From: Candidatus Desulfovibrio intestinigallinarum
Lineage (GTDB): Bacteria > Desulfobacterota > Desulfovibrionia > Desulfovibrionales > Desulfovibrionaceae
Length of the DNA stretch: 42,189 nt
Direction: 5' to 3'
Assembly (NCBI GenBank): GCA_019114565.1
Contig: DXFI01000122.1
Coordinates: 1 to 42,189 of the forward strand
Positions within the stretch are counted from its first letter, which is position 1, and the number at the start of each line of letters is the position of its first letter. Below, in pieces: positions 6,265 to 36,247 of the stretch. The notes beneath the pieces were generated by a model. That model saw only the letters and a list, made by a program, of their open reading frames with translations. It did not search any database and was not told where the DNA came from. Made by a program: the position numbers and the translations under genes.

Positions 6265-6417
6265 TTAATAGATATGCCCCTTAAAGCTGTACAGTAGTAA
6301 CAGTCCAGCAAAAGCAATCGCCCCTAAAATGAATATGGTATGTATGCTCAGTGCAATCAAAATTTTGCAGACTTCTCGAAATGTAGTCCCATGTCTTCTT
6401 TTCTTTTTTGGCATCAT
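6265..6417 (-). CDS. small membrane protein (50 aa), below the supplied ORF size cutoff
   Basis: reads MMPKKKRRHGTTFREVCKILIALSIHTIFILGAIAFAGLLLLYSFKGHIY; shares FR-VCKIL-AL with the neighbouring ORF. Confidence 0.5.
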   Translation of the reverse strand: MMPKKKRRHGTTFREVCKILIALSIHTIFILGAIAFAGLLLLYSFKGHIY

Positions 6418-6437: not shown

Positions 6438-6860
6438 CTAATTGACATAGTTAAACAATGCAAATACGAGTATGATATGAAATATAATGTAGCCCAATGC
6501 CATCAAAATTTTGCAGACATCCCGAAATTCTGGAGACTTTTGCGCGACGCGATGAAAAATATACGCGACAACAAGGACAGCCAGCGCCGCAAGGGAGGCG
6601 ATGCGTAAGGCGTCTCCCGCCTCAAAAAGGATGTAGGAAACAGCCCGGACGCAAAGAACCCCCACCCAGCAGACAGGCAGCGCCGTCATGGAAAGCGCGA
6701 AAACAAAGGCCAGCCGCCCCATGAGCGAGAGGCTCTGTAACGGACTCAGAATCGGAGAGCGCAGCAGACGCGCCTTCAGCGCATGGCGCTTCCTGGCCGC
6801 AAGCCAGACTCCCAGGGCGGCTATGTTGGCGGCGATCCAGACAGGAAAAACGCTCGTCAT
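6438..6860 (-). CDS. membrane protein of unknown function
   Basis: 140-aa ORF with several TM segments, directly after pilV. Confidence 0.6.
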   Translation of the reverse strand: MTSVFPVWIAANIAALGVWLAARKRHALKARLLRSPILSPLQSLSLMGRLAFVFALSMTALPVCWVGVLCVRAVSYILFEAGDALRIASLAALAVLVVAYIFHRVAQKSPEFRDVCKILMALGYIIFHIILVFALFNYVN

Positions 6861-6863
6861 GAA

Positions 6864-7988
6864 TTAACTCCCCGATTTCACGCACTGCGTCAGCGCGAAG
6901 ACGCGGGCGTAGTTTGCCGCCGGATAGAGCCAGCCCTCGTCGTCGCCCGTGCTTTTGTCCGCCGTCTGGAGCCGCAGATGCACCTGCCATTCCGTGGCCG
7001 ACACCGAAGTCGCCCATGCCTGAAAGGCCGTGATGGGCGGCGCCTGCGCTCCGGCCGCGGCCAGCTGGGGAGCCACATAGATGGCGGGCGTCGTATTCGT
7101 GCCCGGAGCGCAGACGGGCTTCTTCACCCGCGCGCCGTTGGCGACAACGACCGCTTCCTTGAAGTGCGCGGCATTGCCCGTGTCGCTGACAAGCTCCAGA
7201 GAATGATTGCGACAGAGATAGAGGCCCTGTTCGCGATCAAGAAACATGCGTCCCTGATCCTCGTCCGCCGTGCAGGATTCGGAGGAAATTTCGCGTTCCA
7301 CAAACTGCACGGACTGCGCGTTGTCGATAGCGTGATCCGTCATGTCGAGTTCGGTCTGCATGGCGTTCAGCTCCGGGTTTCCGGGCACGGCCACGCGATA
7401 GAGAAAATCCTGCCCCAGCGCCGAGGAATCGTAGATGGAAAGCGCTCCGAGATGCCCCGCGCCCGGCGAAGGAATCCCCAGCGAGGCAAGACTGACGGCC
7501 CAGCCGTTGCCGGCTCCCTGAAGCGTGCCGCTGGACTCTCCGGGCTTGACGCCGGTGGGCACATAACCGCCCGCGCCGCCCACGAGAGACGCCGTGAACG
7601 GAATGACGGAGTTGGCGAAGGCGTCCGAGGAATCCGCCGCGCCGCGTCCGCCCGATGTCAGGACGACAGCCTGGAGTCTGCCGGTCTCCGGCTGACGGAC
7701 GTAGACGGAATAGTTCTGCAACCAGATGTTGTGTTCGCTGAACCCCGCGGGCAGGAAACCTTCGTTGACGAGAGTCTGAATCGTCACGGTGGGGCCGGAC
7801 GAGGCTCCAGTCTGTGCCAGCAGCGTGTCCTGATGGCGGTTGACATAGGAGCGCGCTCCCTGAACCACCATGCGCAGATGATCCGCGGCCACGCGCTGCT
7901 GCGACGCCGTATTGCCCATGACCCAGAGATCCGCGAGGTTCGGAAGCATCAACAAAAAGATGAGCAGCATGCCGATTGCATGGATCAT
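6864..7988 (-). CDS. pilV: PilV-like minor pilin/adhesin of a conjugative type IV pilus
   Basis: N-terminal TM plus QRVAADHLRMVVQGARSYV and LVNEGFLPAGFSEHNIWLQNYSVYVRQP typical of PilV; ATGA overlap with upstream pilM-like gene. Confidence 0.8.
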   Translation of the reverse strand: MIHAIGMLLIFLLMLPNLADLWVMGNTASQQRVAADHLRMVVQGARSYVNRHQDTLLAQTGASSGPTVTIQTLVNEGFLPAGFSEHNIWLQNYSVYVRQPETGRLQAVVLTSGGRGAADSSDAFANSVIPFTASLVGGAGGYVPTGVKPGESSGTLQGAGNGWAVSLASLGIPSPGAGHLGALSIYDSSALGQDFLYRVAVPGNPELNAMQTELDMTDHAIDNAQSVQFVEREISSESCTADEDQGRMFLDREQGLYLCRNHSLELVSDTGNAAHFKEAVVVANGARVKKPVCAPGTNTTPAIYVAPQLAAAGAQAPPITAFQAWATSVSATEWQVHLRLQTADKSTGDDEGWLYPAANYARVFALTQCVKSGS

Positions 7989-21773: not shown

Positions 21774-23033
21774 TCAGGCGAAAACCCCTTCAAGCCATGC
21801 GTCGAACGAGGGAGGCGGCATTGCCCCGGTCATGCTTTCCCGTGCCCGGTCAAGCAGCTTTTCCGGCGAAAAGCCCAGCGCCCTGGCGCGACAGAGCGCG
21901 GCGCAAATCTTGCCTCTGACCTCGGACGGCCAAAGCCTGCTGAATGCGTCGAAAACTTTTCCCGCCTCGTCGGCCTTTGCCCGCTCTTCCGGGGTTCGCT
22001 TCGCCGGGGGAAGTTCCTTCGCGGGCGGCGCGAGAGGTACGGCCTGCGTGCCGGAGGAGGTATCGACGCCGCAGGCCGCCCCATACCCGTCCTGCCGGAA
22101 CGGTTCGTCGTTCCAGCGTTCGCCCTGGAGCCAGCCGGTCAGGTTCGGGACATAACCGCGCATCCAGCGGCTGTCTTCACGCCGGAAACGCTCGACAACG
22201 CCTAAAAGCGCGTCGATGTCCGGCAGGCGTCCCGCCCGCGCGAGAGAGCGGAAAGTTCGTTCAGCGGAAAGCCGCCCCTGCTTGATCGGCCATGCCTGGA
22301 ACAGCCGGTCAAAGGCCGCCGGAAGGAAGGCGGGACTGGTCGTACCGACCGCGCCGTCCGCGCTCCTCTTCGTTCCCGCCTTCCTGGAGTAAGTCATCGA
22401 CCGTTGAGTCAACGACCGACCTTCCGGCGTTTCAGCCCTTTTGGGGCGTGAAAGAAAATCCCCCCTCCCGGAGAGTTTCGGAGGACAGACGCCGCCCGTC
22501 GCACACGCTCTTGTCTGTGCGGGAGCGGATACGCGACGCGAAGGAGAAACATCGCCCGTGCTGGTCGTCGGAAGGGGGGAAAGGGGGGTAATATCTCTCT
22601 TTTCTTCTTTCTTATCTTCCTTAAAGGAAGGACCGGCAGATTTTGCCGCTCCGACCGGTACATTCTTCCGGTCTTCGGGTAAAAAAAGAGAGTCGGTTTC
22701 GTAGCCCAGCCGCTCAAGCAGCGACATGAGCCGGGGAGATCTGAGAAGGCGATAGACGCTGCGTCCGTTGTTGGATGTCCAGTCGCGACGCACGTCGATA
22801 TACTCGTAGTGGCGCAGGATGCCGAGGTAGGTCCGAGCCGTCCGCTCGCAGCCCTTGCACACGAGCGCGAGCGTCTCCATCGGAACCGAGCATTCGCCGG
22901 TATGGAGAGAGGAGCTGAAGAGGAAGGCGTAGAGATGGCTCGCTCCAAGCCCCACCTCCCGATCAAGGTCAATGAAACGGGGATAGAACTTGTCCGCCAC
23001 TCTCAAGAAATTCTGAGGCACCAAAGTCTTCAT
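21774..23033 (-). CDS. winged-helix replication-like protein (phage/plasmid replisome-organizer type)
   Basis: N-terminal HTH (SVPMETLALVCKGCERTARTYLGIL) and C-terminal FDRLFQAWPIKQGRLSAERTFRSL...YVPNLTGWLQGERWNDEP pattern; start MKTLVPQ with GGGG upstream. Confidence 0.65.
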   Translation of the reverse strand: MKTLVPQNFLRVADKFYPRFIDLDREVGLGASHLYAFLFSSSLHTGECSVPMETLALVCKGCERTARTYLGILRHYEYIDVRRDWTSNNGRSVYRLLRSPRLMSLLERLGYETDSLFLPEDRKNVPVGAAKSAGPSFKEDKKEEKRDITPLSPLPTTSTGDVSPSRRVSAPAQTRACATGGVCPPKLSGRGDFLSRPKRAETPEGRSLTQRSMTYSRKAGTKRSADGAVGTTSPAFLPAAFDRLFQAWPIKQGRLSAERTFRSLARAGRLPDIDALLGVVERFRREDSRWMRGYVPNLTGWLQGERWNDEPFRQDGYGAACGVDTSSGTQAVPLAPPAKELPPAKRTPEERAKADEAGKVFDAFSRLWPSEVRGKICAALCRARALGFSPEKLLDRARESMTGAMPPPSFDAWLEGVFA

Positions 23034-23075
23034 CTCAGCCCCCATGAAAAAGGCAAAGAAAAAGCCCCCGAACGC

Positions 23076-23104
23076 TTGACGCCGGTCTCAAAGAAGACTA
23101 TGGT
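23076..23104 (+). promoter_or_regulatory. sigma70-like promoter for a putative antisense sRNA
   Basis: TTGACG (23076-23081), 17-nt spacer, TATGGT (23099-23104). Confidence 0.55.
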
Positions 23105-23110
23105 AAAACC

Positions 23111-23175
23111 TGTCAACGGCTCACCACAGTGGGCATTGCCTCGAAAGCGCTTGCAACACTTTCGGGGCTTTTTTC
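23111..23175 (+). ncRNA. putative ~65-nt countertranscript RNA antisense to the leader of the replication-like gene
   Basis: promoter at correct spacing upstream and an intrinsic terminator at its end; no ORF needed to explain it. Confidence 0.45.
23139..23175 (+). terminator. rho-independent terminator
   Basis: CCTCGAAAG / CTTTCGGGG stem with one G:T pair, followed by CTTTTTTC. Confidence 0.7.
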
Positions 23176-23262
23176 TTTCGCTCTTTTCTGTACTTTTCTG
23201 GTTTTTGCTACCCGTTTTTTATCCCGGAAATTGCTCAAATAGCAAACAACATACCATATCGC

Positions 23263-23487
23263 CTATACGACGATTCCGGCCTCACGACACTCCCGAATCA
23301 GAGGCCCGTGCATCTTTTTCGGCACAAGATTCTTGAAGTATAACGCGGTCCTGAGAAGAGCTCGCTCGCAACCGCCGGGGCCTTCTTCCTCCAGCGCATC
23401 GAAATAATAGCGCTTGATCTTGGGATCACGGGTTTTCATGAAGGAATCAAGGCGTAACTGACCGCCATCATTGCTCTTTTTCATCAA
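23263..23487 (-). CDS. hypothetical protein
   Basis: 74-aa ORF at the distal end of the transfer module. Confidence 0.5.
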   Translation of the reverse strand: MMKKSNDGGQLRLDSFMKTRDPKIKRYYFDALEEEGPGGCERALLRTALYFKNLVPKKMHGPLIRECREAGIVV

Positions 23488-23566
23488 AAATCTCCTTTTT
23501 GCTGCCCATCTCTGTAAAAAACGCCCTTCCGGTTAGCTATAGGGTGTTGCAAAACCAAAAAAAGGG

Positions 23567-23600
23567 AGCTGGCCCCCAAAACCAACTCCCTTTAATCATT
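23567..23600. terminator. strong hairpin separating the conjugation module from the backbone
   Basis: AAAGGGAGCTGG...CCAACTCCCTTT stem-loop preceded by an A-tract. Confidence 0.65.
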
Positions 23601-23684
23601 AACTTTCTACTTTTTTGCCTTGGAATCCGCAAGGAAAAGGTTCCCTTCCCCCCTCAGTAATCAACCAAATCTCCCTTCTCCGCC

Positions 23685-24296
23685 CTACCCCGCAGCCGTC
23701 AAACACAGCATGACGGTTTGCAGGGGAGCCGCGGGCAGCGGTGGCGGCGGCGGAATAACCGGGCCGCCTTCGGGCCAGATGCACTGCGCGGTCATGGCAA
23801 CCATAGCCGCGCCCACGCCGCACTTGCAGATGGTGCCGAGAAAACGGCCCACCAGCGTGCCGAAGGCCGCGTTAAAGGCTTCCTGCCGGGAACGCCCCTT
23901 GAGCAGCTCCATCAGCAGACAGCCCAGCCATGCGCCGCCCAGCGCGCCGATAAGCGCGCCGAGTCCGAAGAAGAGGGGCGCAAGCACAATGGCGCCGATG
24001 ATACCGCCGATCATGCCTGCCAGCGTCCCCGCCGAACTGGAACCATGCCGCTTTGCCTTGAGGAGCTGCACGCCGGTTTCCATGACCTCCCCGGCCACGG
24101 CAAGGGCGCACATGCCGATCCAGTACCACAGGCCCATGCTGTTTTCCTGCGGTACGCCAAAGTACCAGAGGACGGCCAGCACAAGAATAAGCCAGTTGGC
24201 GGGCAGTCCCACCACATTGAGCAGCACGGAGCAGCCCAGAACAATAATAAACACCACGGCAAAGCCGGTGCCCAGCAGGGCCAGCAACGCTTCCAT
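23685..24296 (-). CDS. DUF456 family membrane protein
   Basis: GLPANWLILVLAVLWYF and Gly-rich TM pattern. Confidence 0.75.
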   Translation of the reverse strand: MEALLALLGTGFAVVFIIVLGCSVLLNVVGLPANWLILVLAVLWYFGVPQENSMGLWYWIGMCALAVAGEVMETGVQLLKAKRHGSSSAGTLAGMIGGIIGAIVLAPLFFGLGALIGALGGAWLGCLLMELLKGRSRQEAFNAAFGTLVGRFLGTICKCGVGAAMVAMTAQCIWPEGGPVIPPPPPLPAAPLQTVMLCLTAAG

Positions 24297-26921: not shown

Positions 26922-27006
26922 GCCGAGGTGGTGGAACTGGTAGACACGCTATCTTGAGGGGGTAGTGGCAATAGCTGTGCGGGTTCGAGTCCCGCCCTCG
27001 GCACCA
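26922..27006 (+). tRNA. tRNA-Leu (anticodon GAG), CCA encoded
   Basis: GCCGAGG/CCTCGGC acceptor, loop TTGAGGG, long variable arm, GGTTCGAGTCC T-arm. Confidence 0.95.
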
Positions 27007-34019: not shown

Positions 34020-34104
34020 GCCGAGGTGGTGGAACTGGTAGACACGCTATCTTGAGGGGGTAGTGGCAATAGCTGTGCGGGTTCGAGTCCCGCCCTCGGC
34101 ACCA
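34020..34104 (+). tRNA. tRNA-Leu (GAG), identical to copy 1
   Basis: 85 nt identical sequence. Confidence 0.95.
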
Positions 34105-36162: not shown

Positions 36163-36247
36163 GCCGAGGTGGTGGAACTGGTAGACACGCTATCTTGAGG
36201 GGGTAGTGGCAATAGCTGTGCGGGTTCGAGTCCCGCCCTCGGCACCA
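36163..36247 (+). tRNA. tRNA-Leu (GAG), identical to copies 1 and 2
   Basis: 85 nt identical sequence. Confidence 0.95.

Follow-up and report, generated by a model that had tools for sequence, protein, structure and literature searches.

The question raised by this locus is how a minus-strand rep-like gene, whose leader is overlapped by signals for a short transcript of the opposite strand, might be controlled. The first-pass annotation had taken the arrangement for rep attenuation of the pT181/pIP501 type, in which a countertranscript RNA acts together with alternative leader pairings. The window, by which we mean the whole stretch of 42,189 nucleotides that was analysed, is an entire contig (G000:C48), and the conjugative element that carries the gene makes up its left ~23.6 kb.

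The rep-like gene and its conjugative element

The putative initiator is encoded at 21774..23033 on the minus strand, and its start at 23033 agrees with the N-termini of homologues. A search of Pfam gave no match for the window Rep itself; HTH_36 is present in its relatives, and a ColE2-type Rep domain was found neither in Rep nor in the relatives. Similarity to initiator families was found through phrog_270, a phage replication-initiation family matched by all ten aligned Rep members (best 8.5e-29), which bears out the earlier claim that a replication-like gene lies downstream of the leader. Rep presumably drives replication. Searches of viral contigs with Rep and with the product of a neighbouring 73-aa gene returned no relatives, Rep searches of a plasmid collection and of solved structures returned no match, and the matches from a phage search cover only 17% of Rep. 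A Rep profile search placed the family in 65 of 288 host-family genomes. The source genome carries a second, divergent rep gene (G000:C221:18659-19747; L031, L157), whose leader was found by the RNA model at 63.7 bits. The 73-aa gene (23263..23484, minus strand) lies upstream of the leader, and related open reading frames occur upstream of some relatives; a CopB-like role for it is only a guess.

The conjugative-element genes in the window encode VirB4/TrbE, a shufflon-type PilV, PilO, a secretin, TcpQ and two secretion ATPases, along with TraL, TrbB, TrbC, TrbD and one DUF5338 protein. Ordinary chromosomal genes run from 23685 onward, and similarity of the window to an uncultured Desulfovibrio MAG (L003/L029, L038/L039) ends near 23655, where this loss of similarity to a near relative likely marks the element edge. 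The rep-like gene adjoins that edge; an att repeat, that is, a second sequence copy at the element edge, was sought and not found. In single-contig genomes, related rep genes lie in chromosome-sized contigs (G021, G111) beside tRNA genes, and the related rep-bearing elements are therefore probably integrated conjugative elements; in G111 a DotH-like type IVB secretion gene lies near the related rep locus. The element may replicate autonomously, as the first-pass annotation had supposed. Elsewhere in the window, the shufflon-type PilV gene (6864-7988) has a 37-nt direct repeat pair nearby (6346-6382 and 6492-6528), and three tRNA-Leu(gag) genes of the chromosomal part (26922-27006, 34020-34104 and 36163-36247) sit inside repeated segments with more direct and inverted repeats.

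The predicted antisense RNA and the rep leader

The plus-strand sequence TTGACG-17-TATGGT (23076..23104; -35 TTGACG at 23076-23081, a 17-nt spacer and -10 TATGGT at 23099-23104) was the sole sigma70-like site found within 22900-23700. Shuffled sequences contained 0.6 +/- 0.6 such sites, and the single promoter match in the window is not significant alone; the weight therefore rests on comparison with relatives. An intrinsic terminator lies at 23138..23174 on the same strand, with a stem of GCCTCGAAAG (23138-23147) and CTTTCGGGGC (23159-23168) followed by T6. It was missed by the first terminator scan because its loop is 11 nt long, and was recovered by a separate scan. Promoter and terminator were thus confirmed where they had been proposed, and they delimit a predicted countertranscript RNA of ~64 nt (23111..23174, plus strand), for which we infer a start ~7 nt past the -10 and an end at the U-run. 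Such an RNA, presumably made on the evidence of these signals, would be antisense over its full length to the leader of the rep-like gene, as the first-pass annotation had it. Its first 7-9 nt are predicted to be unpaired and are complementary to the target loop described below.

The complementary leader, read along the minus strand, begins with the A-rich 5' strand of a helix, P1 (23164..23190), upstream of hairpin I, the complement of the antisense terminator at 23138..23174. Hairpin II (23097..23130) carries a hypervariable 7-nt loop (23111-23117, GUUGACA on the mRNA). A conserved box, GGCGUCAAGCGUUCGGGGGCU, located by pattern search at 23063..23083, includes the complement of the antisense -35, and the 3' strand of P1 (23043..23069), composed of GGGGGC and two U-runs, adjoins the ribosome-binding site. 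When the antisense-covered segment is unavailable, an alternative ribosome-site hairpin, GCCUUU-UUCAU-GGGGGC (23038..23054), is predicted. Folding of this region had been suggested as a check, and both RNAs proved more stable than their shuffles (z -3.9, 0/200, for the 127-nt leader; z -3.6 for the countertranscript RNA). Control of the IncFII/IncI type would call for a conserved leader peptide coupled to rep. A short leader open reading frame has 7 codons in the window and 12 in the nearest relative, and none shared was seen in the other leader groups, as judged by eye from aligned leaders.

Two leader pairings had been described as mutually exclusive, the near hairpin of GCCTCGAAAG and CTTTCGGGGC and a distal pairing in which AAAAAGCCCC is perfectly complementary to GGGGCTTTTT. 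Both pairings exist and their exclusivity is only partial, the predicted window fold accommodating GCCCC in the distal helix and GAAAG in the near hairpin. The distal pairing is one end of the long P1 helix, which joins the A-rich and U-rich arms over ~27 nt per strand and closes the leader immediately ahead of the ribosome-binding site. The U-rich tract said to follow the distal pairing does not hold up, as both U-runs lie inside this helix (23043-23069 with 23164-23190).

The motif GGYGTCAAGC-N0-5-GGGGGCT was used to search other genomes and identified mostly loci of this kind, ahead of homologous rep genes; its reversed control pattern gave zero matches. Matches L043, L048, L049 and L052 were discarded as not lying ahead of rep, and motif scans of viral contigs returned 51 stretches, only one of which (L062) lay at a rep gene on comparison with the Rep set. 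Within the comparison set of 48 leaders of related rep genes, an antisense TTGAC[AG] lies 42-66 nt ahead of the rep ATG in 47, and in most a TA...T hexamer follows exactly 17 nt past this -35. The terminator scan found an antisense terminator in 46 of 47 leaders, a result better than shuffles. Predicted antisense RNA lengths are mostly 61-77 nt, the shortest lengths coming from leaders with a misassigned hairpin I; the automatic assignment of this hairpin was wrong in a few leaders (L150, L126, L129 and L132), for which a manual assignment was used in the swap tests.

The leaders fall into three sequence groups (A, B and C) with a single architecture, in the order A-rich arm, hairpin I (the terminator complement), arm b, hairpin II, a GUCAA-bearing hairpin, arm b', U-rich arm and ribosome site. 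Covariation in homologues, proposed earlier as a check, was observed in the group C stems (33 double-changed cells against 11.6 +/- 2.9 in shuffles, 0/500), and structures slid along the alignment pair far less in this group. The idea of competing stems was retained in part among the homologues, in that alternative pairings are kept, but hairpin I and the distal helix are mostly separate segments that do not compete. A covariance model was built from group C leaders, with the group of the window left out. Its strong matches in group B (E 6e-15 to 1e-5) and its weaker ones to several group A leaders lie in the expected position and orientation; the window itself is missed by this model. A phylum-wide model search gave weak matches outside the host family, with E about 1e-6 to 1e-3. 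No leader reached the cut-off of an Rfam antisense or cis-regulatory family, the best antisense-family score being 14.2 bits for ctRNA_p42d against a cut-off of 50. The same layout is kept in dozens of relatives, and judged by this sequence comparison the antisense feature at the rep leader is therefore real, its conservation being far above chance.

Changes among close relatives are concentrated in the loops. Between the window and a 95%-identical relative (L046), the hairpin II loop differs at 6 of 7 bases while all 55 stem positions of the two hairpins are identical, as expected of a specificity (incompatibility) determinant. Across 15 close leader pairs, hairpin I accumulated 0.28 substitutions per base in the loop against 0.04 in the stem, and two leaders of one genome (L115 and L134) differ solely in hairpin I. 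In the window, the variable hairpin II loop (23111-23117) lies opposite the first bases of the antisense RNA, which are predicted to be unpaired, and sense-antisense pairing presumably begins at this hairpin II loop. A near-relative MAG (G048) holds two copies of the rep region, L046 and L047, with the same target loop; these identical loops are not easily reconciled with copies that replicate freely and are incompatible with one another.

How the antisense RNA may act on rep

The short antisense RNA very probably limits the frequency with which replication of the conjugative element starts, as far as sequence can indicate. Results for P1 bear on the manner in which this might be achieved. The P1 strands of each leader fit their own partners better than swapped ones, both globally (5/20000) and when swapped inside groups only over a slightly longer region (10/20000), and a control segment had no effect; the leaders are related to each other, so these permutation counts are not strict probabilities. 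The 3' end of P1 lies 3-26 nt from the start codon. Accessibility of the ribosome-binding site was scored over the region from -14 to AUG, with antisense-covered bases barred from pairing. With the antisense footprint masked, the mean predicted accessibility fell from 0.434 to 0.310, and 27 of 28 leaders showed a decrease, though the effect is small in several. The mean drop was 0.124, compared with 0.021 when the 5' leaders were shuffled, and the observed mean was not reached in any of 20000 resampled sets of these related leaders. This whole-region score was a second look, taken after a weaker score on six SD bases alone (drop in 21 of 31 leaders, p 0.019). In the window, the unpaired probability of the region was 0.59 free and 0.39 masked, and the U-rich strand of the masked leader is predicted to pair with the GGGGG ribosome site, structure predictions for multibranched RNAs of ~200 nt being unreliable in general. 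The group of the window has a poor SD (GGGGG), and a strong SD hairpin is absent from it.

The computed results comprise conservation of the antisense promoter and terminator, covariation in the hairpins, complementarity of the P1 strands, hypervariable loops and a predicted change in accessibility; that control acts at translation is what we infer from the folding models. Under such a model, the region would serve as the replication control of the conjugative element, with a ~64-nt countertranscript RNA transcribed from the strand opposite the rep leader. When this RNA is absent, P1 would join the A-rich stretch upstream of hairpin I with the U-rich stretch before the ribosome-binding site, leaving the ribosome site comparatively open so that Rep is made. 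When many element copies are present, the antisense RNA would be abundant and its unpaired 5' tail would touch the 7-nt loop of leader hairpin II, after which pairing would extend via hairpin II and hairpin I to the A-rich stretch. P1 would then not form properly, the U-rich stretch would pair with the ribosome site and Rep synthesis would drop, and the sequence of the loop would determine which elements recognise one another. We assign this translational switch a probability of roughly 0.55, and favour it over attenuation because masking lowers the predicted ribosome-site accessibility and the sense terminators are weak.

Leaders of group B offer an additional observation. In L116, L115, L119 and L135, a small antisense-covered hairpin and the ribosome-site hairpin have an identical loop (GAGCGAU, occurring twice, in L116), and these twin loops vary together between elements. 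The group B antisense RNA could therefore also pair directly with the ribosome site.

Transcription attenuation, the type of control named in the first-pass annotation, could here take a form in which the antisense RNA sequesters the upstream arm and a local hairpin around the GUCAA box, together with the U-rich stretch, then terminates transcription before rep. A loose scan did find sense hairpins ahead of U-rich stretches in 28 of 47 leaders, somewhat stronger than with shuffled heads (median -9.5 against -7.1 kcal/mol), and the group B leaders L122, L116 and L120 have a GC-rich hairpin near a U-run. These sense terminators are nevertheless weak and inconsistent, often several bases away from the U-run, with half the strength of the antisense terminators (median -9.5 against -18.4 kcal/mol), and the local stem of the window has about 5 pairs. 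The distal helix in relatives generally has no U-run after it, which argues against P1 as a terminator. The locus resembles pT181/pIP501 in having a countertranscript RNA opposite the rep leader, on sequence evidence, and differs in having no strong conserved sense terminator before rep; their terminator logic could not be upheld here, and we regard attenuation as clearly less probable than the translational switch.

A still less probable account has the antisense RNA working chiefly on the stability or processing of the transcript, by cleavage of the duplex, with P1 as a stability element. The full sense-antisense complementarity is compatible with it, as a duplex of this kind can serve as an RNase III substrate, and many relatives have an upstream hammerhead ribozyme that suggests a processed mRNA 5' end. 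Of 30 related loci searched, 18 have a type II hammerhead (RF02276) upstream of rep and on its strand, examples being L116 1237-1298, L128 1219-1284, L126 1210-1273, L042 2293-2358 and L044 456-520, among others, and a genome search gave many more just upstream of rep matches, on coordinates compared by eye. In groups B and C the ribozymes end about 190-230 nt ahead of the ATG, leaving 47-62 nt to hairpin I, a near-constant 56-62 nt in most; in group A they end about 470-860 nt ahead of the ATG and immediately precede the small upstream gene. These ribozymes may set the mRNA 5' end. Against the stability account, no type II hammerhead was found in the window, and the coupling between P1 and the ribosome site is left unexplained.

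It is very improbable that conservation here reflects a DNA element (operator or origin) with incidental antisense promoter and terminator signals. In favour of this reading, some conserved sequence (GGCGTCAAGC...GGGGGCT) lies outside the paired hairpin stems; against it, stems are kept though their sequences change on both sides, loops vary against constant stems, and the -35, the -10 spacing and the terminator are kept together in divergent leaders.

Bacterial hammerheads were reported near integrase and prophage genes in a 2011 survey (PMC3088659), and a literature search turned up no report of a connection with the control of rep. Extending the translational switch to the relatives, we tentatively propose, at somewhat less than even odds, a large undescribed RNA-switch family of integrated conjugative elements in Desulfovibrionaceae, in which the countertranscript would toggle P1 and the ribosome-binding site and a hammerhead would set the 5' end in most relatives, the window having lost or replaced its ribozyme.

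Known control systems and significance

The closest layout is that of REx-C (RepA-PFP, RepJ, pRA2). The parts of its description drawn on here (PMC5304414) give an antisense-terminator hairpin flanked by adenines, a second hairpin whose stem is conserved and whose loop varies, and an antisense promoter inside a third structure with rep downstream, in association with several Rep families; incompatibility is altered by few changes clustered in a stem-loop, and the SaL 2 loop is variable. Compared with that partial description, the window likewise has a terminator hairpin with an A-stretch, a variable-loop hairpin (loop 23111-23117, resembling SaL 2) and an antisense promoter. It differs in that its Rep groups with HTH_36 and phage O-like initiators, in its host, a Desulfovibrio-like genus as opposed to the Pseudomonas of REx-C, and in the long P1 helix that takes in the U-rich stretch, a helix absent from those parts of the description. 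In ColE2, as summarised in part of the same source, the rep 5' untranslated region is the complement of a small antisense RNA that acts post-transcriptionally. The locus studied here shares a predicted RNA of this kind and differs in that no ColE2-type Rep domain was found and in belonging to a conjugative, probably integrated element and not a small plasmid. For RNAII of pMV158, the portion of the source used (PMC4485353) describes an antisense 5' tail important for binding and inhibition of rep translation. The predicted contact of the window antisense RNA 5' tail with the target loop is similar; pMV158 has a rolling-circle Rep and a different leader, and the likeness drawn here is in the tail contact. 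The region would appear to work like REx-C/ColE2-like modules, its layout being close to what is described of them; it is not filed as a member because the Rep differs and the comparison made was one of layout.

Most known cases of replication control by antisense RNA come from plasmids of enterobacteria, pseudomonads and Gram-positives. Similar antisense control appears here in dozens of loci, in apparently chromosomally integrated conjugative elements of Desulfovibrio-like bacteria. If this is true, integrated conjugative elements would retain plasmid-like control of copy number and compatibility, the loop would constitute a testable specificity code, and the parts could be used to build vectors for a group in which genetic tools are scarce. 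A use for bacterial hammerheads may, in addition, be indicated by the neighbouring ribozymes.
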